In this document: positions 1-56,496 of the stretch, in pieces
Numbering within the stretch: position 1 is the first letter of the stretch
Layout: each line of letters begins with the position of its first letter
Assembly (NCBI GenBank): GCA_945896675.1
Contig: CAMDEM010000014.1
Span: 1-57,046, forward strand
Origin: Cyanobium sp. NIES-981
GTDB taxonomy: Bacteria > Cyanobacteriota > Cyanobacteriia > PCC-6307 > Cyanobiaceae
Direction of reading: 5' to 3'
Length of the DNA: 57,046 bases
Position numbers and translations under genes: made by a program
The notes under the pieces: model-generated
The model's database searches: none
What the model saw: the letters and a program-made list of their open reading frames with translations, nothing else
What the model was told of the DNA's origin: nothing

Positions 1-1335
1 GCCACCGCCGCTGGTGGCCCAAAGGCCACCAGCGGACGCCGTAACCACAGCGGGTGAGCCGGCGATGCTCCAACTGCGTGTCGCGCCAGTGTCGACATCG
101 GAGGCAGCCAGGGTGCCGCTGACGCTCGTGGTACCGGCGCTAGCGGTGCCATTGTCGAGAAAGCCGGCTTCTATGACTGAACCCGTCAGTGCGCCTGCGC
201 TGTTGGTGGCGATTGGCAGGTCGTTGGTGCCATTAATGGTGACGGTGATCGTCTGATCGACGTAGGCGCCGAAGTCGTCGGTGACCCGGGCGGTGTAGCT
301 CTGGGTGACTGATTGACCTTCCTTGAGCGCTTGGGTTGCTGCCTTGGTGTTGTCGAGGCTGTAGGTCCACACTCCGGTGGAGGCATCGATCGCGATCGCG
401 CCATAGGTGGTGGATGGGGTTCCCGTGATACTCCAGGTGCGCGTCGCACTCCCATCTCCGTCAGTAGCACTCAGGGTGCCTGAGATGGAACTGGTGCCAG
501 CAAAGGTGGTGCCGTTATCGAGATTGCCAGCCTCTATAACCGAACCGGTTAGGGCTGCAGCGTTGTTGGTAACCGTTGGAACATCATTGGTGCCATTAAT
601 GGAGACGGTGATCGTCTGATCGACGTAGGCGCCGAAGTCGTCGGTGACCCGAGCCGTGAAGGTTTCACTAGCCGATTGGCCTTCCTTAAGGGCCTGGGTT
701 GCGGCTTTAGTGTTATCGAGGCTGTAGGTCCACACCCCGGTGCTGGCGTTGATCGCAATGGCGCCATAGGTAGTTGACGGGGTGCCGGCAATGCTCCAGG
801 TGCGCGTTGCACCAGCATCCACATCGGAGGCACTCAAGGTGCCGGTAACAGAGTTGGTGCCGGCAACCGCGGTGCCGGTGTCGAGATGGCCAGCTTCTGT
901 AAGCGAGCCAATTAATGCTGCTGCGTTGTTGGTGACCTCTGGAACGTCATTGGTGCCGTTGATGGTGACGCTGATCGTCTGATCGACGTAGACACCGAAG
1001 TTGTCGGTGACCCGGGCAGTGAACGCTTCGTTGACGGATTGACCTTCCTTGAGCGCCTGTGTAGCCGTCTTGGTGTTATCGAGGCTGTAGGTCCACACCC
1101 CGGTGGAAGGATCGATCGCGATCGCGCCATAAGTGGTGGATAGGTTGCCAGTGATACTCCAGGTGCGTGTCGCGCCATTGTCAACATCAGAGGCAGCCAA
1201 GGTGCCACCTACGGTCGTGGTGCCCGAACTATCGGTGCCATTGTCGAGATGGCCAGCTTCTGTGATTACACCAACCAAAGCCGTTGTGGCATTGGTTACA
1301 ACTGGACTATCATTCGTGCCCCTAATCGTGATTGT
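1..1335 (-). repeat. Tandem 363-bp VCBS-encoding repeats
   Basis: The sequence gatcgtctgatcgacgta recurs at 247, 610 and 973, exactly 363 bp (121 codons) apart, and the DNA between the anchors is very similar. Each unit encodes one VCBS-type repeat, with 'YGAIAIDASTGVWTYSLDN' and then 'KAATQALKEGQS'. The fourth unit, cut by the left edge, diverges after 'WSIAGSP'. Such similarity suggests recent amplification or gene conversion. Confidence 0.85.
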
Positions 1336-4300
1336 GACATCTTGCGAACTGCCAGCCAAATCAGCGGAGCTGTCAGTGAGTGTGATGCGGTAAGAAGCCG
1401 TGACTGAATCTCCATCACCCAGGTATTGGATGATGTTGTTATTTAGTGCAAAGCTCCAGTTGAGGGTGCCATTTGATGCTGGACCAGAAACCCCTGGTCC
1501 GCTGAGGGCAAAAGTATTTGTCAGATCAGCAAGGGCGGCTTGCAAATCGCTGGAAACATTGCTTCCCGACGAGGCGGTAGCTTGAAGCAGCACTGCACTG
1601 GCTTGCACAACTTCAGTGCTGTCTACCTCCTGGAAATTTAGGGTGCCGCTGGTGCTTATAAGCTGATACCCACTGCTGGCTGAAGCAAGCTGGATGGAGC
1701 TCAGTGCCTGGGTGTTATCGAGACCTACACTTACAAGGCTATCGTCAGTGTAGGGATTAGCTAGACTGAGTACCCGGAGGTTATTCGAACTGCCATCGAA
1801 GTCCACACCAGTGCTATTGCCACCTAAGCTGGCATTCCCCCATGTAATGACGGAACCGTCTGCTTTTAGGGCGGCAAAGCCTGAGGAATTGGAGAAGATC
1901 TGGGTAACACCTGAACTGAGGCTGCTGGCAACAGTGCTGCTATTACCGCCGTAGGCAGGGTCTCCCCATGTGACGACAGAGCCATCGCTCTTTAGAGCTG
2001 CAAACGCAGCTTCATTGCCAAAAATCTGAGTAACATTTGAAATGATACTACTGGCAACGGAGCTACTGTTGCCACCCCACTGGTTGTAACCCCAGGTAAC
2101 GACGGAGCCGTCGTCCTTCAAGGCTGCAAAGGCATGGCTTGTTGAAGAAAGCTGCTTGACGCCCGAACCAAGACGGGTAGCAACCGAACTGTAATTACCG
2201 CCAAAGCTGCCGTCCCCCCATGCGATGACAGAGCCGTCGCTCTTTAAGGCTGCGAAGGCACGTTCTGTAGTTAGAATATGTTTTACACCTGAACTGATGC
2301 TGTTAAGAACGGCACTGCTATCTCCGCCTGAATTCGGAGCTCCCCAAGTGATGACAGACCCGTCGGCCTTCAGGGCGGCAAACGCAGAAGGACCTGAGAA
2401 GATTTTGGTGACGCCCGAACTGAGATTGCTAGAAACGGTACTGCTGTTGCCGCCAAAAGAGGCATCTCCCCAGGTGACAACTGAGCCATCGTCCTTTAGT
2501 GCTGCAAAGGCACGTTCAGTAGAAATAATTTGGGTGACACCTGAACCAATGCTATTTGCAACCGAGCTGCTGTTGCCACCATTAGAAGGATTACCCCACG
2601 TGATGACGGCACCATTCTGCTTCAAAGCAGCAAAACCGTAGGGCCCAGAGAAAACCTTGACGACGCCTGAGGTGAGACTGTTAGCAACAGCACTACTATT
2701 TCCACCGTTATTGGAGTCGCCCCAGGTGATGACAGATCCATCACTCTTTAAGGCTGCAAAAGAAAAGACATTGGAGAAAATCTTGGCAACGCCTGAAACG
2801 AGGCTGCTTGCTACAGCGCTACTGTTGCCGCCACGAGCAGGGTTACCCCACGTAACGACAGAGCCGTCGGCCTTTAAGGCTGCAAAAGCATAGGTGGCCG
2901 TAAAGATTTGGATGACACCTGAGCTGAGGCTACTAGCAACAGCACTACTATCTCCCCCGTTGCTGGAATCTCCCCAAGTAACGACAGAACCATCGCTGCG
3001 CAGTGCAGCAAAAGCATTAATGTTCGCAAATTCCTGATCGGTACGCCCTGAAAGCCTAAGGGCATTATACGTATAAGAGCCGGTGCTTTGTATAGCAGTG
3101 CTAGTCATAAGCACTCCAGAGGCATTAACAGCTGCTGCTGTAACCGTAAAGCTGTTGTAGCTACGTCCAGTCAGCTCGAGTTGAGCACCATTAACACTTG
3201 CACTAACCAAAGCATTCGTCGTGGCATTAGTTGCCACTGCAGCAGCCAAGCGGGTGGCGATCGTACTGAGAGGGGCGGAGGTCCCACTCAGATCAGATGC
3301 AATCACTGTGTGCTGGACAGTGATGCCATTGAGCGTGAGGCTTACCGAATCACCGAGTTGGTAGCTACCGCTCAGCGTCAAACTCTCGCGCTGAGTCCGT
3401 TGACCTAATGTCACCGAGCCGGAATCTTCTTTGACCTCGCGGCTGCTGACAGCAGCTGTGATTTGGGGCAGGTCGTTGCTACCGGTGATCGAGAAGATCA
3501 GCTCGCTGCTTAACCCCGTGGAACTGCCATCGGTGACCTGAATCGTGCCAAAGCTGTCAATGACATTCTGGCCGGCGGATAGACCTTGGGTGACAGTGGA
3601 GCTGTCGCTGAGGCTGTAGCTCACCACACCAGTACTTAGGGAGAAACTGGCGGTGCCGTAGGTACCACTCTTGGTGTAGGTGCTGCCGTTGTCTCCGGTG
3701 CTCCAACCGTTGCTAATCAGATAACCCGTGTCGTAGCTGGCGGTGCCATCAATATCACCTTTACTCAGGCTGATTGAGGCACTGGCAACACCAGCGCTGC
3801 CGTTACTGATACCGCCGGCTTCCACCAGAGTGGCCGTGGGGCTGGTGGCTGAGACGGTGGGTGCGTCGTTGCTGCCGGTGATGGAGAAAACCAGCTCGCT
3901 GCTCAGCGTTGTGGCACTGCCATCGGTGACCTGAATGCTGCCGAAACTGTCGCTGGCGCTCTGGCCGGAAGTAAGACCTTGGGTGGCAGTAGAGCTATTA
4001 TCAAGCGTATAGGTGACGACTCCGCTATTGAGCGAGAAGGTTGCATTACCGTAGCTGCCTGATTTGGTGTAATCACCACTGCCACTGCTGCTCCAACCCT
4101 GACTTGTCAGATAACCAGTGTCGTAATAGGTAGTGCTCAAGACCTCCAGGGCCACGTTCATGGCCCAATTGTCGTGATTTAAGACAAGCCCGTCATAAAG
4201 ACGGAGACTTGCGTAGTCGCTGGTTGACGGCCAGGGCGTTGCTGACACATAAGTGTCATTGACCCAAGTTAAGGGAGCTCCGCTGGTGACATTGCCTGAA

Positions 4301-7300
4301 CCCCTGTTGCCTCCATGAAGCCCCTGACCAACATACGAACCACTCAGATTGCCATTATAGGAATCCCAGATAGCACTTAAATCGTCATAGCTGCTGTTGG
4401 CCTGGCTCGGGTTGGCGATAGCCGTACCGTCCATCAGACGGTACGTAGGGCTGGTTCCGAGGGTCGGCAGCGCCAGCTTCACGCCGTTGAGAGTGGCATA
4501 GCGGTAGATGTCGTTTGTCGATACTCCAGTATTGCCATCGATGTCTTTCTTGAAGAGGTTGTAGATCTCACTGAGACGAAAAGTTCCTTGATCTCGTTTG
4601 TAAGCATCTCCGGCTATGGTCCCGTCACTGTTTCGATCCCAGTGGTAATACTTCTTTCCTTCGACTTGCACTGGGGCGATCAATTTGCCCAAGCTGCCCA
4701 GATCTATGATGGGAGCGATCGCAGCGCTGCCATCAACATCGCCTTTACTCAGTGTGATCGAGGCGCTAAAAACACCAGCGCTTCCGTTATTGATACCGCC
4801 GGCTTCCACCAGGATGGCCGTTGGGCTGCCAGCCGACACTGTGGGCGCGTCGTCGCTGCCGGTGATCGAGAAGACCAGCGCATTGCTTAGGGCCGTAGCG
4901 CGGCCATCGGTGACCTGAATGCTGCCAAAACTGTCGGTGACACTTTGGCCGGCAGTGAGTGATTGGGTGGCATTGGCGACGTTGTTGAGGCTGTAGGTGA
5001 CGACACCAGTTGTCAAAGAGAAGCTGGCAGTGCCATAGCTGCCGGTTTTGGTGTAGGTGCTGTTGCCGCTATCGCTCCAGCCGTTGATGATCAGATATCC
5101 CGTGTCGTAGCTGGCGGTGCCCTCAACATCGGCCTTACTCAGGCTGATTGAGGCACTGGCAACACCAGAAGTACCGTTATTGATACCACCAGCTTCCACC
5201 AGGGTGGCTGTGGGGTTGGCTGCCGTAACGGTGGGCGCGTCGTTGAGGGCATTGACCAAAATGCCCAGACTCACGGTGCTAGCGCTGTAGGCCGTGGTGC
5301 CACCATTAGTTCTTACATCAACGGTGCTGCCGTTAGCCGGGGCCGAGCTTCCAGCTGCTGTGATGCTCGAATCAACCAGACGGGCGGTCAGCCCACCCGG
5401 AGTACCGTTGTAGTTGGCGGCAGGAACAAACCGCAGCTGGGTTGCGGCAGAAAGAAAGACGCCGTTGCTGTCACTCAGTCCAGCGGAGATATCGGTCCAG
5501 TTGCCGTTGCTTTTCCATTGCCAGGTGCCCTGGGCGGAGGTTGCAGCATTGGCCGTAACAACAACGCCATAAAAACCGGCGGGAGTACCAGGGCTTGGAT
5601 TTACTGCCGAACCAGAATCCAGAATGACTTGATAAAGAAGCGAATCAAAGATCGAATCTTCATCACCAATCGACATGACATAGTCCAGTACTACGTCATC
5701 TGCCAGGCTGTTGATATAGGCATCATTGGGATCAAATTGGTAAGATCCGTTCGAAAGATTGAGAGAGAAAGCTCCATAGTCATCAACAATCTGCGCGCTA
5801 GTGCCATTGACCAATCCACCATCCAGGCGCAACTTCAACGGTGAGGGAGTTGTCGGCAGTGGAAAGCTCCCGTAGCTAACGGGGAAATCCTCATCATCAT
5901 CGTCAGGATCATTAACGTAGAGATCCCAGTCCAGCTGGGCATCAAAGCGCAGCACGACAACTCCAGATCCGCCGGCGCCAGTTAGATAGTTATTGGCTCC
6001 CGCACCACCACCACCGCCGGTGTTTTGGACGCCACCTGTTGCAGCATTCGTAGCAGAAGCGGCATTGCCAGCGTTGGTTCCGCCAGTTCCACTGGAGCCA
6101 GATCCGGCTCCACCACCCCCTGAGCCATAGACAATGGGGACTCCGGTGGTTCTGAAAATTATTCCTTCTCCACCATTTCCGCCAGTCGCCCCGACGGCAT
6201 TTGACCCTGCAGACAGGGCACCACCACCACCACCGCCAGCAGGACTTTCGCCCCAGCCCACCCGGTTGCTTTGACCACCTCGATTACCGTAAAAGGTGAC
6301 GTCAGCAATATTGGTAACGGAACCAGAAACAGCAGCCCCCCCGGAACCAACGCTCCAATGGCCACCACCACCGGAACCGCCTTGGGAGCCCAGGTCGCCA
6401 CTATTTCCGCCACCAACACCGCCACCAACAACGGCTAGGGATTGCCCTGTGGCTGACGAAGAAATCGTTGTTGTGCCGCCATTATACGACGTATTACCAG
6501 TTGAATAAGTGCCGCCAGAAGATGCACTACCTCCAGATCCAACAGAGATCAAATAGACGGCAGGCAGGATATTGAAGTTTGCGGTGTAGGCCACACCGCC
6601 GCCGCCGCCGCCACCTGCGGCAAGGTTGTACGCCCAAGCACCGGAAGCACCGCCCCCAACTGCCAGTAGCTCAGCAACAGTTGAGCGCAAACTCACAAAC
6701 TCTGAACTTGCCTGCTTAAACGTGAGGACTAGATCTCCGTCGAGGAGCTTGGCATCTTGTACTGGATTCGTCAGCAACAATTTGGCTGTGTCGCTTGAAT
6801 CGCTAAAGTTCAACCCGAATAAGCCAGCAACTGTGCCACTGCTGATGGCAAGGCTGGATGGGTCCTCATTGACAGGCGCAAGGGAAGCCGCACCCGATGC
6901 CACAGGAGCAGCATCATTAATCGCCAATACAGCCGTTCCCAAGCTCACGGCATCCTCGGAGTAGGCCGTGGTGCCACCATTCGTACTTACATTGAGAATG
7001 CTGCCGTTAGCCGGGGCCGAGCTTCCAGCTGCTGTGATGCTCGAATCAACCAGACGAGCGGTCAGCCCACCCGGAGTACCGTTGTAGTTGGCGGCAGGAA
7101 CAAACCGCAGCTGGGTTGCGGCAGAAAGAAAGACGCCGTTGCTGTCACTCAGTCCAGCGGAGATGTCGGTCCAGTTGCCGTTGCTTTCCCATTGCCAGGT
7201 GCCCTGGGCGGAGGTTGCAGCATTGGCCGTAACAACTACGCCGGCAAAGTTATGATTATCGATTGCGTCGAAGAAGGTGTCAGCAAAGATCGATGAAACT

Positions 7301-7926
7301 ATCTCGCCGCTGATTGCGGAGCTGGGGGTGTCCTCATCAATGGGTGCAAGGGATGCATAACCATTGGCGATGGGGGCATGGTTTTCCACAGAAGCCTCCA
7401 CTGCCACCTGTTGGCCATCGATCATCAAGGTGTAGTGGTCTGTGTCCTTGAAAGCCTCCGCCACAACCAATATGGGATCAGCAGCCGTGACCAGCTGGGC
7501 AAAAAAGGCACCTTCGTCGCCACTGCTATCAATCTTTACCCCATTGAGTAGCCAATCCAGGGCATGGCCGATCTCCTGGAGCAACAACTGCCGCTGTTCT
7601 TCAGGACTGGCCGCAGCAAACCACTCTTCATTCACCAGAATCGTTGGCCTTCCCGTGGGGTAGCCCCCCGCAAAGACGCCCTGAAAGCCCTTCAGCGTCT
7701 GTCCATCAACCAGCTCGAAATCCAGATCTGGCAGACCCGTGCCGCTTTGCAGGGCGCCCAGAACGCCCTTCAGGCCTTGGTTCCAGGTATCACTCGTCGT
7801 TGCACGAGCAAAAACCCGAGTTACCAGGCCCTTGAAATCGGCCTGGGCAGAACGCGCCTGAAGCCAATGCCAGACATCTGCAATGGATTCATTCAGCGGC
7901 AGATTTGCCGCTTTTGCGCCGTCCAC
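1..7926 (-). CDS. Giant repeat-built surface/secreted protein (VCBS, RCC1-like and Gly-rich blocks), 3' end outside window
   Basis: An uninterrupted minus-strand frame runs off the left edge, giving at least 2,642 residues. In order from the N-terminus: a protease-like region with QEIGH (residues 117-121) in a helix such as cyanobacterial giant proteins carry; a repeated ~94-residue block (6961-7243 and 5287-5569) flanking a Gly-rich domain (about 5950-6690); VCBS-type repeats ending in 'TGSND' (about 3470-5240), one split by an inserted domain (4129-4722); ten RCC1-like repeats (about 1845-3040); then 121-residue VCBS repeats with 'VTDDFGAYVDQTI' and 'INGTND'. No classical signal peptide is seen, so non-classical (type I) export and a surface or adhesin role are inferred. 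The start is uncertain: an in-frame stop lies at about 8002-8004 and no ATG follows, so GTG 7926 is proposed. GC is lower than in neighbouring genes. Confidence 0.8.
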   Translation of the reverse strand, partial: MDGAKAANLPLNESIADVWHWLQARSAQADFKGLVTRVFARATTSDTWNQGLKGVLGALQSGTGLPDLDFELVDGQTLKGFQGVFAGGYPTGRPTILVNEEWFAAASPEEQRQLLLQEIGHALDWLLNGVKIDSSGDEGAFFAQLVTAADPILVVAEAFKDTDHYTLMIDGQQVAVEASVENHAPIANGYASLAPIDEDTPSSAISGEIVSSIFADTFFDAIDNHNFAGVVVTANAATSAQGTWQWESNGNWTDISAGLSDSNGVFLSAATQLRFVPAANYNGTPGGLTARLVDSSITAAGSSAPANGSILNVSTNGGTTAYSEDAVSLGTAVLAINDAAPVASGAASLAPVNEDPSSLAISSGTVAGLFGLNFSDSSDTAKLLLTNPVQDAKLLDGDLVLTFKQASSEFVSLRSTVAELLAVGGGASGAWAYNLAAGGGGGGGVAYTANFNILPAVYLISVGSGGSASSGGTYSTGNTSYNGGTTTISSSATGQSLAVVGGGVGGGNSGDLGSQGGSGGGGHWSVGSGGAAVSGSVTNIADVTFYGNRGGQSNRVGWGESPAGGGGGGALSAGSNAVGATGGNGGEGIIFRTTGVPIVYGSGGGGAGSGSSGTGGTNAGNAASATNAATGGVQNTGGGGGAGANNYLTGAGGSGVVVLRFDAQLDWDLYVNDPDDDDEDFPVSYGSFPLPTTPSPLKLRLDGGLVNGTSAQIVDDYGAFSLNLSNGSYQFDPNDAYINSLADDVVLDYVMSIGDEDSIFDSLLYQVILDSGSAVNPSPGTPAGFYGVVVTANAATSAQGTWQWKSNGNWTDISAGLSDSNGVFLSAATQLRFVPAANYNGTPGGLTARLVDSSITAAGSSAPANGSTVDVRTNGGTTAYSASTVSLGILVNALNDAPTVTAANPTATLVEAGGINNGTSGVASASISLSKADVEGTASYDTGYLIINGWSDSGNSTYTKTGSYGTASFSLTTGVVTYSLNNVANATQSLTAGQSVTDSFGSIQVTDGRATALSNALVFSITGSDDAPTVSAGSPTAILVEAGGINNGSAGVFSASITLSKGDVDGSAAIAPIIDLGSLGKLIAPVQVEGKKYYHWDRNSDGTIAGDAYKRDQGTFRLSEIYNLFKKDIDGNTGVSTNDIYRYATLNGVKLALPTLGTSPTYRLMDGTAIANPSQANSSYDDLSAIWDSYNGNLSGSYVGQGLHGGNRGSGNVTSGAPLTWVNDTYVSATPWPSTSDYASLRLYDGLVLNHDNWAMNVALEVLSTTYYDTGYLTSQGWSSSGSGDYTKSGSYGNATFSLNSGVVTYTLDNSSTATQGLTSGQSASDSFGSIQVTDGSATTLSSELVFSITGSNDAPTVSATSPTATLVEAGGISNGSAGVASASISLSKGDIDGTASYDTGYLISNGWSTGDNGSTYTKSGTYGTASFSLSTGVVSYSLSDSSTVTQGLSAGQNVIDSFGTIQVTDGSSTGLSSELIFSITGSNDLPQITAAVSSREVKEDSGSVTLGQRTQRESLTLSGSYQLGDSVSLTLNGITVQHTVIASDLSGTSAPLSTIATRLAAAVATNATTNALVSASVNGAQLELTGRSYNSFTVTAAAVNASGVLMTSTAIQSTGSYTYNALRLSGRTDQEFANINAFAALRSDGSVVTWGDSSNGGDSSAVASSLSSGVIQIFTATYAFAALKADGSVVTWGNPARGGNSSAVASSLVSGVAKIFSNVFSFAALKSDGSVITWGDSNNGGNSSAVANSLTSGVVKVFSGPYGFAALKQNGAVITWGNPSNGGNSSSVANSIGSGVTQIISTERAFAALKDDGSVVTWGDASFGGNSSTVSSNLSSGVTKIFSGPSAFAALKADGSVITWGAPNSGGDSSAVLNSISSGVKHILTTERAFAALKSDGSVIAWGDGSFGGNYSSVATRLGSGVKQLSSTSHAFAALKDDGSVVTWGYNQWGGNSSSVASSIISNVTQIFGNEAAFAALKSDGSVVTWGDPAYGGNSSTVASSLSSGVTQIFSNSSGFAALKADGSVITWGNASLGGNSTGVDFDGSSNNLRVLSLANPYTDDSLVSVGLDNTQALSSIQLASASSGYQLISTSGTLNFQEVDSTEVVQASAVLLQATASSGSNVSSDLQAALADLTNTFALSGPGVSGPASNGTLNWSFALNNNIIQYLGDGDSVTASYRITLTDSSADLAGSSQDVTITIRGTNDSPVVTNATTALVGVITEAGHLDNGTDSSGTTTVGGTLAASDVDNGATRTWSITGNLSTTYGAIAIDPSTGVWTYSLDNTKTATQALKEGQSVNEAFTARVTDNFGVYVDQTISVTINGTNDVPEVTNNAAALIGSLTEAGHLDTGTAVAGTNSVTGTLSASDVDAGATRTWSIAGTPSTTYGAIAINASTGVWTYSLDNTKAATQALKEGQSASETFTARVTDDFGAYVDQTITVSINGTNDVPTVTNNAAALTGSVIEAGNLDNGTTFAGTSSISGTLSATDGDGSATRTWSITGTPSTTYGAIAIDASTGVWTYSLDNTKAATQALKEGQSVTQSYTARVTDDFGAYVDQTITVTINGTNDLPIATNSAGALTGSVIEAGFLDNGTASAGTTSVSGTLAASDVDTGATRSWSIAGSPAVVTASAGGLWATSGGG
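8..35. repeat. Perfect 12-bp inverted repeat at the window edge
   Basis: ccgctggtggcc (8-19) is followed by caaa and the exact reverse complement ggccaccagcgg (24-35). It lies within the giant reading frame, at the point where the last VCBS unit stops resembling its neighbours. It may be a real coding hairpin or an assembly fold-back artefact. Confidence 0.75.
1845..3040 (-). repeat. Ten RCC1-like tandem repeats inside the giant gene
   Basis: About every 126 bp (42 codons) the minus strand encodes a variant of 'FAALKADGSVVTWG' followed by '(G)GNSSAVASSLSSGV(T)QIF'. Ten copies can be counted by the recurring plus-strand anchor cccca-gtgatgaca. This pattern resembles the RCC1/beta-propeller repeats of bacterial surface proteins. 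Copies differ more at DNA level than the 363-bp VCBS units, so this block looks older. Confidence 0.8.
4129..4722 (-). other. ~198-residue domain inserted inside one VCBS repeat
   Basis: Neighbouring repeats read '...GDIDGTASYDTGYL...'. Here the same unit reads 'GDVDGSA', then about 198 other residues, then 'YYDTGYL', after which the repeat resumes. The inserted part contains 'GKLIAPVQVEGKKYYHWDR', 'DIYRYATLNGVKLALPT' and 'YVSATPWPS', resembling the DUF1566/Lcl-like carbohydrate-binding type modules of other cyanobacterial giant proteins. Boundaries are approximate; the family assignment is tentative. Confidence 0.6.
5287..5569 (-). repeat. Long direct repeat, copy A (283 bp)
   Basis: This block matches 6961-7243 at a constant offset of 1,674 bp (558 codons). 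Differences are concentrated in the first ~50 bp, and the rest is almost identical. It encodes 'QGTWQWKSNGNWTDISAGLS' and 'LRFVPAANYNGTPGGLTARL', a module found repeatedly in this type of giant protein. Confidence 0.85.
6961..7243 (-). repeat. Long direct repeat, copy B (283 bp)
   Basis: Partner of 5287-5569; see that entry. The two copies flank the Gly-rich domain, so recombination between them would remove exactly 558 codons in frame. Confidence 0.85.
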
Positions 7927-53717: not shown

Positions 53718-54848
53718 TCAGCGGCAATCCCGCTCGGCCAACACGGCCGCCTGGCCCTTGCCATCTTGGGCAATGGGTTGGCGATCAAAATTGTCGTTGG
53801 TCACATCAAAGCTGCGATCTCCGCAATGGAGCACCAGGGTGCGATTGGTGTAGGTGCCATAGGCCCGGCCCTTGCCCTGATCCAGGGCCGCCCCCAGACA
53901 TTGCTGACGGTCGCCCCAGATGCAGCTCGCGGCCCCCAAGACCACACCAAACACATTGCTGCCAATCTGGCCGCTGCGATCAATCTCAAAGCGACGCACG
54001 TCATAGGTGAGGGGCGCCCCCGCGATCGGGCGGCTGAAGCTTTCGCGGGTATCCACGGTCCATTCGCCCATGCGCTGGCCGGGCTTGAGTTGGGAAGCCA
54101 GCCCTTCGGTGAGGGCCGTAAAGCGATCTTTGGGATAGCCGTGGTGCTGGGCACTGATGCGTTCGTAATCGCCAATCTCAAACATCAAGTTGGCGGCGGC
54201 GGTGAAGTCGTCGAGGGCCAACGTTCCCTGGCTGAGCAACCAGCCCATCAGGATTCCGCTGCGCCAATCGGCCGCAAGCTCTTCCTGCTGGACCGTGAGG
54301 CTAAAGCCCGTGCGGTAGGGGCCCCGGCCCAAAGAGCGGTTGACATGGTGGCCCCACTCATGGGCAAGCACCGCCAACTCCATCGGCAACAACTCCTGGT
54401 CACTCTTGCCGCGGGCAGCCTTGGTACCGCGGCGCAGATCGAGGGCCATGGCGATCTGCAGGCTTTCAGGGCAATAGAAGGCCATCGGATGCACAATCCG
54501 ATTCACGCCACAACCCTGGGCCCGAGCACCAGCGAACAACAGCTGGGGATTTTCTAGGGATTTGCCCTGCTTCTGGGCCTCCTGCTGCCAGTAGCGGTAG
54601 AGGAACCCATGGGCAGCAAGCAGATAGCGCTGCCTTAGATCTGGGCCACCGCCTTGCTCGCGAATCTGCTGAAGTTCGGCGCCCGCAGGCACTTTGACTG
54701 CCGGCAGAGCGGACTCCGGGGCAGCAACCTGCGCTGGAACCAGCTTTGCTGGAGCTCGCTGTGCTGGAACGACCTTCGCGCGGGCCCCGCTGCCGACAAA
54801 CAGCAAGGGCAGCAGGAATGGCAGCAGCAAGGGCAGGAGGCGATTCAA
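53718..54848 (-). CDS. Secreted neutral zinc metallopeptidase (YpfJ-like)
   Basis: A 376-residue protein with a long hydrophobic signal peptide (about residues 3-22, 'LLPLLLPFLLPLLFVGSG') and a Val/Pro/Ala-rich linker to residue ~55. The zinc motif 'LAHEWGHHVN' (His163, Glu164, His167) is followed by 'QQEELAADWRSGIL', the usual third-ligand helix of the neutral zinc metallopeptidase/YpfJ family. The C-terminal ~110 residues contain paired cysteines ('AASCIWGDRQQCLG', 'LVLHCGDRSF', 'AERDCR'), suggesting disulfides in an extracytoplasmic domain. The TTG start overlaps the stop of the upstream ligand-gated channel gene (TTGA), so the two are translationally coupled. Confidence 0.88.
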   Translation of the reverse strand: MNRLLPLLLPFLLPLLFVGSGARAKVVPAQRAPAKLVPAQVAAPESALPAVKVPAGAELQQIREQGGGPDLRQRYLLAAHGFLYRYWQQEAQKQGKSLENPQLLFAGARAQGCGVNRIVHPMAFYCPESLQIAMALDLRRGTKAARGKSDQELLPMELAVLAHEWGHHVNRSLGRGPYRTGFSLTVQQEELAADWRSGILMGWLLSQGTLALDDFTAAANLMFEIGDYERISAQHHGYPKDRFTALTEGLASQLKPGQRMGEWTVDTRESFSRPIAGAPLTYDVRRFEIDRSGQIGSNVFGVVLGAASCIWGDRQQCLGAALDQGKGRAYGTYTNRTLVLHCGDRSFDVTNDNFDRQPIAQDGKGQAAVLAERDCR

Positions 54849-56029
54849 AGGTGCGCCTGGGAATAGAAGTAGATATTCACAAGTACGAACAACAGGGGCA
54901 GCACGATCTCACACCCCAGTTCCACACGATTGACAAGCACCTTTGTTTCGCCACCAAATCGATCAACCAAGGAAATCCCATAGGCGATAAATACTTCAGC
55001 AACCATAAAAAAGAAGAGAAAGAGTGTATAGGTGTCGCCAAGGGTGAAGTAGGGCACCCTTGGCACCGAGCTCGCAATGATCAACTGATAGGCAAGGGTT
55101 GTAAAGAGCAGACCGCTCACGAAGCCGATGCGATCACCTATTTCACTAATGGGCACAGCCAGAAAAAAGATGCTGGTGAAGCTCAAGATCCCCAAAGGCA
55201 CAAATATCTTATAAAGGTAATAATCACTCTTACGGGCTACATCAATTTCCAATTTTAGCATCGAAAAAATATCGTTGCCATGGTCGGGATCGTCGTAGGC
55301 TATGACCTTGCTACTAAACCCAACAACGCTCCAATCCGGTATCCCAAAAGCCTTGGAAACCGTGAGATTGCGACCATCATCGATCAGCCTCACGACCCTG
55401 GCATCCCAGGCAAAAGAAGCAATTTCACCCACCAGTCGTTGGCGGTCAAACGGAAAACGGTGTACATCGAAATTTGATTCGAGAGTGACCATAAATCTTC
55501 TCTGGATCTCCGCACGTCCATCATTAAAAATCGTGAGATTCAAGTCATCTCCGACCGTCTCACCAATTTCATTAATGAACGTGATTTGGGGGTTCCAAAT
55601 CCCCTTTAAGTAATCAATAGCCCCTTCATTAGCATACACCCGTTCCTCCACTCCTGCAATCAAATCCACTGCCAGCCTGGGGTCACACCAGGCCACATCT
55701 AAATAACCTTCGAGCTTAAACTGGTCGTCGGTGGATGAAATCAAGGGGATTTCATCCACATGCAATTTCACTTCCACATCCAGCGGCTCACCCCGCTTGA
55801 GGATCGGTGGGGAAAGCCGATCCTTGCTGAGGCGATCCAGGGGGAAGCAATTCAGCGCAGCATTAGCACTGGTATCTGGCTTGCTGCGATCCGCTGCCGC
55901 AGGCAGGTTCAGCTGGGGAGCCGCCTGGCCATTCCATGGGCCCAAACCCAGAATGCAAACCAAGCTGAGGCCAAGCAGAACACAAAAGAAGCGACGAAGA
56001 GACCTGCGCAAACCCTTGGATCCAGTCAT
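54845..56029 (-). CDS. Prokaryotic pentameric ligand-gated ion channel (Cys-loop receptor-type)
   Basis: A 394-residue protein. Signal peptide at residues ~12-36. The extracellular beta-sandwich (about 80-265) has 'EVKLHVDEIPLISSTDDQFK', 'WNPQITFINEIG' and the canonical loop 'VHRFPFDRQRL' (no Cys pair, as in bacterial GLIC/ELIC). Four membrane helices follow: M1 ~272-292, M2 ~299-320 ending 'SSVPRVPYFTLGDTY', M3 ~332-354, M4 ~370-390 at the C-terminus. The ligand is unknown; proton or small-amine gating is possible by analogy. GC is clearly lower than in the flanking genes, suggesting transfer. Confidence 0.9.
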   Translation of the reverse strand: MTGSKGLRRSLRRFFCVLLGLSLVCILGLGPWNGQAAPQLNLPAAADRSKPDTSANAALNCFPLDRLSKDRLSPPILKRGEPLDVEVKLHVDEIPLISSTDDQFKLEGYLDVAWCDPRLAVDLIAGVEERVYANEGAIDYLKGIWNPQITFINEIGETVGDDLNLTIFNDGRAEIQRRFMVTLESNFDVHRFPFDRQRLVGEIASFAWDARVVRLIDDGRNLTVSKAFGIPDWSVVGFSSKVIAYDDPDHGNDIFSMLKLEIDVARKSDYYLYKIFVPLGILSFTSIFFLAVPISEIGDRIGFVSGLLFTTLAYQLIIASSVPRVPYFTLGDTYTLFLFFFMVAEVFIAYGISLVDRFGGETKVLVNRVELGCEIVLPLLFVLVNIYFYSQAHL

Positions 56030-56085: not shown

Positions 56086-56427
56086 CTAGGGAATCAGGGC
56101 ATGGAGCTGGGCCAGGGGCCCTTGCCCCGTAAGCCATTCGGTGGCCACAGCGAGCACAAAACCCAACATGGCCAAACGGCCATTGAGGAGCTCGGCGGGG
56201 TGGTGAAATCCCCAGGCCCGCTCTTGGCCCACCACTTGCACGGCAGGCTCAATGGGCCTGGGGTCGAGCAAGTCAGGCTCATCCGAGCACCAGCCTTGGT
56301 CCTCCGATTCGGAAAAACCACGCCTGGCTAGGGAGGGAGGTCGCCCAGAGGACAATCGACGTCCCAATGACGCCCTATGTCCCGACGAGAGCTTGGAGAG
56401 AGAGGATTGGTCACGCTTAACAGTCAT
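56086..56427 (-). CDS. High-light-inducible (Hli/SCP) chlorophyll-binding protein
   Basis: About 113 residues from ATG 56427 (136 if ATG 56496 is used). The C-terminus carries the Hli signature 'ELLNGRLAMLGFVLAVATEW' in a single membrane helix, preceded by 'WGFHHPAE'. Hli proteins bind chlorophyll and carotenoid and protect photosystems under high light or nutrient stress. The N-terminal ~65 residues are a long polar Ser/Arg-rich extension ('RASLGRRLSSGRPPSLARRG'), unusual for an Hli of ~50-70 residues. It is 56 bp downstream of the channel-gene start region, on the same strand but upstream of it. Confidence 0.87.
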   Translation of the reverse strand: MTVKRDQSSLSKLSSGHRASLGRRLSSGRPPSLARRGFSESEDQGWCSDEPDLLDPRPIEPAVQVVGQERAWGFHHPAELLNGRLAMLGFVLAVATEWLTGQGPLAQLHALIP

Positions 56428-56496
56428 AGGGTTAATTGCGAAATTTATGGCAACGAGTAAGCCACCTTCACCCTGCCCCATGAACACCAGGGGCAA

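Follow-up and report, generated by a model that had tools for sequence, protein, structure and literature searches.

The window analyzed here, i.e., the whole 57,046-nucleotide stretch of contig CAMDEM010000014.1 from Cyanobium sp. NIES-981 (genome G000), contains a gene for a pentameric ligand-gated ion channel subunit whose stop codon overlaps the start codon of a metallopeptidase gene, downstream of an HLIP-like gene. The features, all read on the minus strand, are as follows:

53718..54848, minus strand: zinc metallopeptidase, probably secreted, a distant PF04228 member (376 aa, TTG start), assigned from PF04228 and the HExGHH motif
54345..54362, minus strand: HEWGHH zinc-binding motif of the peptidase, residues 163–168, read directly
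54845..54848, minus strand: TTGA start/stop overlap of channel and peptidase, read directly, with the same bases in genome G205
54845..56029, minus strand: pentameric ligand-gated (Pro-loop) ion channel subunit (394 aa, ATG start), assigned from PF02931, PDB sequence and fold matches, and dN/dS
55067..55141, minus strand: predicted pore helix M2 of the channel, residues 297–321, a helix of the structural model aligned with ELIC M2
55445..55456, minus strand: FPFD, the beta6–beta7 (Pro-) loop of the channel, residues 192–195, read directly
56086..56496, minus strand: HLIP-like gene, 56 bases upstream of the channel, which adjoins the peptidase in the channel-less genomes G204 and G206

With their profile E-values and frame lengths, channel and peptidase count as real genes. 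The peptidase's TTG, the earliest ATG, GTG, or TTG of its frame, overlaps the channel stop by four bases, exactly as the first-pass annotation of this DNA had described it, and both open reading frames (ORFs) lie where that annotation placed them.

The channel protein matched the ligand-binding-domain profile PF02931 with an E-value of 9.5e-16 (58.3 bits for a cut-off of 26). Compared by sequence with the PDB, its top chain was 3uq4_A (E 2.3e-26), labeled GABA receptor subunit beta-1, as are ELIC entries in the same list; a chain named ELIC (2yn6_A) was matched at E 9.1e-26, and the top chain named proton-gated ion channel, ranked among chains of that name only, at E 4.8e-22. An AlphaFold2 model (mean pLDDT 77.4, pTM 0.66) comprises a beta-sandwich and four membrane helices (residues 268–291, 297–321, 330–358, and 361–393), and all 50 listed PDB fold matches of this model were receptors of the same superfamily, with moderate TM-scores, an insect GABA receptor in first place, and ELIC, sTeLIC, and DeCLIC among them. 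The membrane-region profile PF02932 gave no score on the channel at E 0.01. Judged by eye, the channel likely carries a signal peptide. F192, P193, F194, and D195 are invariant across a 13-row alignment (A2), and PMC4795631 describes the proline at the tip of the beta6–beta7 loop as the most conserved position.

Both the FPFD loop and the four membrane helices had been noted at first pass and are borne out by the translation and the model, respectively. The accompanying label “Cys-loop-type” holds for the pentameric channel (PF02931, PDB) but not for the loop: no cysteines flank FPFD in the translation, so that the animal-type Cys-loop is absent and the name should be Pro-loop. Two cysteines located elsewhere, C61 in an N-terminal extension and C115 in the ligand-binding domain, are common to all five rows of a second alignment (A1; the window's channel and four picocyanobacterial relatives) and perhaps form a disulfide. 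Also invariant in these five rows are D299 and R300, near the cytoplasmic end of the predicted M2. With the ELIC alignment as a frame, we assume both the pore numbering and a rule that ties a residue such as D299 at this end of M2 to cation selectivity, which suggests a cation-selective channel.

Overall, the most likely identity of the protein is an ELIC/GLIC-kind ligand-gated channel of the cytoplasmic membrane that assembles as a homopentamer and is probably cation-selective. It resembles ELIC and GLIC in its ligand-binding domain, four membrane helices, FPFD Pro-loop, and the short M3–M4 linker of the model, but differs from both in the N-terminal extension with the conserved C61/C115 pair, is only 22–24% identical to ELIC chains in the fold alignment, and falls below the cut-off of the NCBI family NF033918 (114.8 bits vs 500). 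Channels in genomes G156, G101, G075, and G081 and at a Cyanobium locus (L105, partial) belong to the same subfamily, with 39–72% identity.

The peptidase passes the PF04228 cut-off narrowly (25.9 bits for 23.2). In a 7-row alignment, H163, E164, G166, H167, and H168 of the HExGHH motif are invariant, as are six cysteines and the downstream acids E189, E190, and D194, among which lies a candidate third zinc ligand. A signal peptide recognized by eye, with which the conserved cysteines fit, makes an extracytoplasmic location likely. The first-pass description as a YpfJ-like secreted metallopeptidase can be kept in so far as this is a secreted-looking PF04228 zinc peptidase, but the resemblance to YpfJ is distant (43.8 bits for a cut-off of 250 on the YpfJ equivalog NF050010). 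PMC3269727 establishes the YpfJ protein KPN_02809 as an active zinc protease; the window's peptidase shares its HExGHH motif and a matching core, and differs in its secreted look, six conserved cysteines, and N- and C-terminal parts beyond the profile match. In some relatives (L050, perhaps L045 and L049), the peptidase is preceded, as judged by eye, by a rhomboid-type membrane-protease-like gene in another frame.

The HLIP-like gene matched the chlorophyll a/b-binding profile PF00504 weakly (22.9 bits for a cut-off of 22.3, over 25 residues). A simple scan returned no terminator-like matches between HLIP-like gene and channel or between channel and peptidase. Given the overlap and the lack of such a match between the genes, coupled expression of channel and peptidase is plausible, with the peptidase probably translated by ribosomes finishing the channel. 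Within the channel gene, promoter-like matches on the peptidase's strand numbered 2 vs 1.1 expected by chance, which might give the peptidase an independent promoter.

Next, we compared this locus across the genus. Among 16 genomes, the channel was matched in four (weakly in G171) and the peptidase in five (in G204 only its first codons, where the contig ends; in G205 with an additional weak match). The pair is found in 2/16, namely the window's genome and G205, both with the order HLIP-like gene, channel, and peptidase. The same site exists without the channel: on contig C147 of G206 the peptidase comes next after the HLIP-like gene, and on contig C181 of G204 so do its opening codons, at which point the contig ends. 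No channel lies between in either case, and the two genomes gave no channel match at E 0.001. G204, G205, and G206 are fragmented drafts, 82–88% complete. Over 94 bases, the spacers of G204 and G206 are alike (74% identity); this shared segment includes the peptidase leader, in which both have a GTG at the corresponding position, and the alignment offers no counterpart for it in G000 and G205. If this GTG is the start, the leader before the common hydrophobic stretch measures ~20 codons in the channel-less relatives vs 3 in G000 and G205. These spacers were rejected as remnants of a channel, since they match channel DNA over short runs only (about 15 bases or less); neither of the longer matches (21 and 14 bases) lies within a channel gene. 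In the phylogeny, G000 and G205 are sisters (support 100/100 and 1.000), and the best tree places G206 closer to them than G204 (74/63 and 0.928), while a tree holding G204 and G206 together was not rejected (p-AU 0.119; 0.176 on fewer columns). As a side observation, LexA was matched on two contigs of G205 (L087, C28, and L088, C36) at 98% and 99% identity, with one match incomplete at the end of its contig. The double match suggests either a redundant assembly or a mixed bin.

The channel gene is AT-richer than the peptidase gene and the rest of the region, in agreement with the first-pass reading. GC and GC3 are 0.493 and 0.549 for the channel vs 0.628 and 0.727 for the peptidase, and GC3 was at or below the channel's value in 1/117 control genes and at or below the peptidase's in 25/117. 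These controls are the members of a set of 647 ORFs with a length of at least 100 codons, a G205 match covering at least 70% of that length at 75% identity or more, and a dN/dS below 0.6, criteria that make them lean to conserved genes. The window's AT-rich first 8 kb, which has no close G205 counterpart, was unusable as a dS control, and other contigs (L137–L176) were sampled. At the G081, G156, G101, and G075 loci, the channel is likewise GC-poorer than its surroundings. As a separate observation, positions 1–7926 of the window (minus strand) hold an ORF of at least 2642 aa that runs off the window start and includes a 363-base tandem repeat and many “AALKSDGSVVTWG”-like units; it looks like a large repeat-rich surface protein.

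Between G000 and G205, the channel is held under purifying selection (dN/dS 0.089; 0.108 before and 0.080 after about codon 140). Its dS of 0.414 is ~3 times the control median of 0.138 and was exceeded by 1/117 controls, and neighbor genes showed a dS of 0.13–0.18 (0.046 for one short ORF). Among controls, low GC3 tracks higher dS (rho −0.30, P 0.001), and the raised dS of the channel may in part be an effect of codon use or composition. In the G205 copy of the channel, codon 148 is read as a stop and no start codon stands at the position of the ATG; the peptidase is intact there. Because dN/dS is low in both halves of the channel, this stop is either recent or an assembly error. Polarized amino acid changes were even (7 vs 7; 19/33 unresolved), and a loss of constraint in G205 was rejected as the whole story on the basis of this balance and of the low dN/dS on both sides of the stop.

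We then evaluated whether channel and peptidase go together elsewhere. Across 201 genomes of the family, the channel search matched 8 (5 strong, 3 weak) and the peptidase search 35, with both in only two, G000 and G156. The two genes lie on separate contigs in G156 and are adjacent in G000 only. This co-occurrence (2 vs 0.87 expected, P 0.21, the expectation being calculated from the 5 strong matches among the 8) is near chance. No channel match at E 1e-5 was obtained in 33 of the 35 peptidase-bearing genomes, nor any peptidase match at the same threshold in G081, G101, and G075, whose channels are close relatives of the window's. In a sample of 388 genomes of the class, PF02931 was found in 33 and PF04228 in 143, the latter an undercount for the peptidase family, as a large part of the picocyanobacterial subfamily escapes this profile (G009 and G010 are matched in the peptidase protein search yet lack a PF04228 match in the class listing). 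Both profiles were found in 16 genomes vs 12.2 expected (P 0.105); G156 would be the 17th. The 15 besides G000 have one peptidase match each, with its position listed, and channel and peptidase lie within 5 kb on one contig in 2/16, G000 and G343.

At the level of loci, a scan of genome contigs, which finds only relatives carrying two peptide patterns, yielded 186 stretches and 23 confirmed channel loci; combined with loci from the genome searches, these make 30 distinct channel places. A peptidase is nearby at two of the 30, the window and its sister G205, and since both belong to one clade, the adjacency does not recur in independent genomes as it would in a conserved system. Some flanks are short (686 bases downstream at L115, 204 bases downstream at L123, and 2,951 at L105), and contig ends may hide neighbors; L006 and L008 are weak channel matches that the tblastn did not list. 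The survey of cyanobacterial genomes proposed in the first-pass annotation thus recovers the pair in G205, and otherwise finds the two genes apart.

Where picocyanobacterial channels of the same subfamily occur at other loci (G156, G101, G075, G081, and L105), they differ by their neighbors, with no peptidase in the stretches examined. In G156, G101, and G075, a Tll0287-like (PF11845) gene is convergent with the channel gene (L040 5250–7303, L041 8369–10458, and L042 8374–10464, respectively; the call is from Pfam for G156 and G101 and from a similar ORF for G075), a fructose-bisphosphate aldolase gene lies beside the channel in G081, and an amino-acid permease gene near it at L105. Five class-sample channel loci were examined as well, and a peptidase was seen only at L127, in G343. 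There, a GAF gene separates a channel of another type from a YpfJ-type peptidase, and upstream of the channel lie a dCache/HAMP sensor gene and a periplasmic-binding-protein-domain gene with a C-terminal part that looks channel-like by eye and on which PF02931 gave no score. The related genome G331 shares 95.7% identity with G343 as far as 72 bases beyond the channel stop, after which the two diverge, and in G306 a GAF gene lies near YpfJ with one ORF between, an arrangement not found in the G372 stretch. Given the other channel type, the intervening GAF gene, the departure of G331, and the GAF gene near YpfJ in G306, we read G343 as a rearrangement and not as a second natural adjacency. The upstream genes form, with the channel, a three-gene group (periplasmic-binding-protein fusion, dCache_3/HAMP sensor, and PF02931 channel) seen in two related cyanobacteria (L127 3166–7986 and L128 370–5198; Pfam on L127).

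Tasneem and colleagues (PMC549065) describe bacterial channels beside PBP-II, Cache, and Na+/H+ symporter genes and attribute the patchy distribution of these channels to transfer and frequent loss. The window's channel is similar in standing beside another gene in a predicted operon, but the partners described there are small-molecule sensors or a symporter, whereas the window's is a peptidase, and no words beginning with peptidase or protease occur in the main text of that paper. A limited literature search found no description of a channel–peptidase pair. Carriage of the channel by phages or plasmids was rejected, as no close relative was found in viral contigs (52 pattern stretches, 0 confirmed channel relatives), in 50,697 phage records (no relative at E 1e-5), or in 72,556 plasmid records, eight of which hold distant matches only (22.0–25.5% identity).

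Taken together, we consider it highly probable that an acquired channel gene was inserted before an older, unrelated peptidase gene and captured its start, the link between the two being a local accident and their functions independent. With a leader common to the channel-less relatives and absent from the two channel-bearing genomes, the channel most likely inserted at this site and replaced the peptidase start. In the common ancestor of G000 and G205, the channel gene would have entered between the HLIP-like gene and the gene for the secreted peptidase, and this insertion would have removed the peptidase's own leader and start. The peptidase would now start at the TTG overlapping the channel stop and be translated by ribosomes finishing the channel, and it most likely still serves a separate proteolytic function outside the cytoplasm, unrelated to the channel. 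We infer a gain because of the channel-less sites, the AT-richness, the patchy presence, and the close channel relatives at other loci; the first-pass suggestion that the channel was acquired and inserted upstream of the peptidase is, on the same channel-less sites, AT-richness, and patchiness, probably right. Against a single shared insertion followed by ordinary evolution stands the channel dS, ~3 times that of controls, which is not explained by that alone.

The reverse course, in which all three genes stood together in the ancestor and a single loss removed the channel from a lineage of G204 and G206, would agree with the loss that PMC549065 considers frequent alongside transfer in patchy bacterial channels, and with the grouping of these two genomes not being rejected (p-AU 0.119, 0.176). 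It is nonetheless unlikely: the best tree puts G206 nearer to G000 and G205 than G204 (74/63; 0.928), and a deletion would also have needed to bring in the shared 94-base leader, which is unlike channel DNA. Somewhat harder still to credit is a channel that arrived by insertion, has no function in this lineage, and is decaying, as the codon 148 stop and the missing start codon in G205, next to an intact peptidase, might indicate. This would fit the insertion but not a kept function, and it conflicts with the low dN/dS overall (0.089) and on either side of about codon 140 (0.108 and 0.080), with the even polarized changes (7 vs 7; 19/33 unresolved), and with the open reading frame of the window's copy; moreover, the G205 stop is possibly recent or an assembly error.

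A functional link was proposed at first pass, with the peptidase acting on the channel by processing it, or on its ligand by producing or removing it; in such a true channel–peptidase unit, the overlap would hold the amounts of the two proteins in proportion. The overlap itself, the shared strand, the predicted location of both proteins outside the cytoplasm, the same arrangement in the sister G205, the purifying selection on the channel, and a class-sample co-occurrence slightly above expectation (16 vs 12.2, P 0.105) all speak for it. We nevertheless regard it as very unlikely and do not uphold a functional system, with the pair in 2/16 genus genomes and an internal channel stop in one of these, a family co-occurrence near chance (2 vs 0.87 expected, P 0.21), and a peptidase near 2/30 channel loci, both in the window's clade; in the class sample the two lie within 5 kb in 2/16, and in one of these, G343, a GAF gene lies between them and the relative G331 lacks the arrangement. 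Barely credible, finally, is that the insertion created a three-gene unit under the control of the HLIP-like gene, with the protease trimming or clearing a stress-linked channel or its peptide ligand; if true, a channel and a periplasmic protease made in fixed proportion would constitute a channel–protease signaling unit born from one insertion.

Rejecting the channel–peptidase system guards against annotation by adjacency alone. The channel and the peptidase are new members of already known kinds, and the channel's subfamily represents picocyanobacterial ligand-gated channels with a conserved extracellular Cys pair, in a group mostly known from ELIC and GLIC. The interest of the locus lies in the newly made gene overlap. 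With an acquired channel gene inserted before an older peptidase gene as the preferred reading, very close relatives offer a natural before/after case, i.e., the same locus with and without the inserted gene, which opens the origin of overlapping and possibly coupled gene pairs to direct testing.
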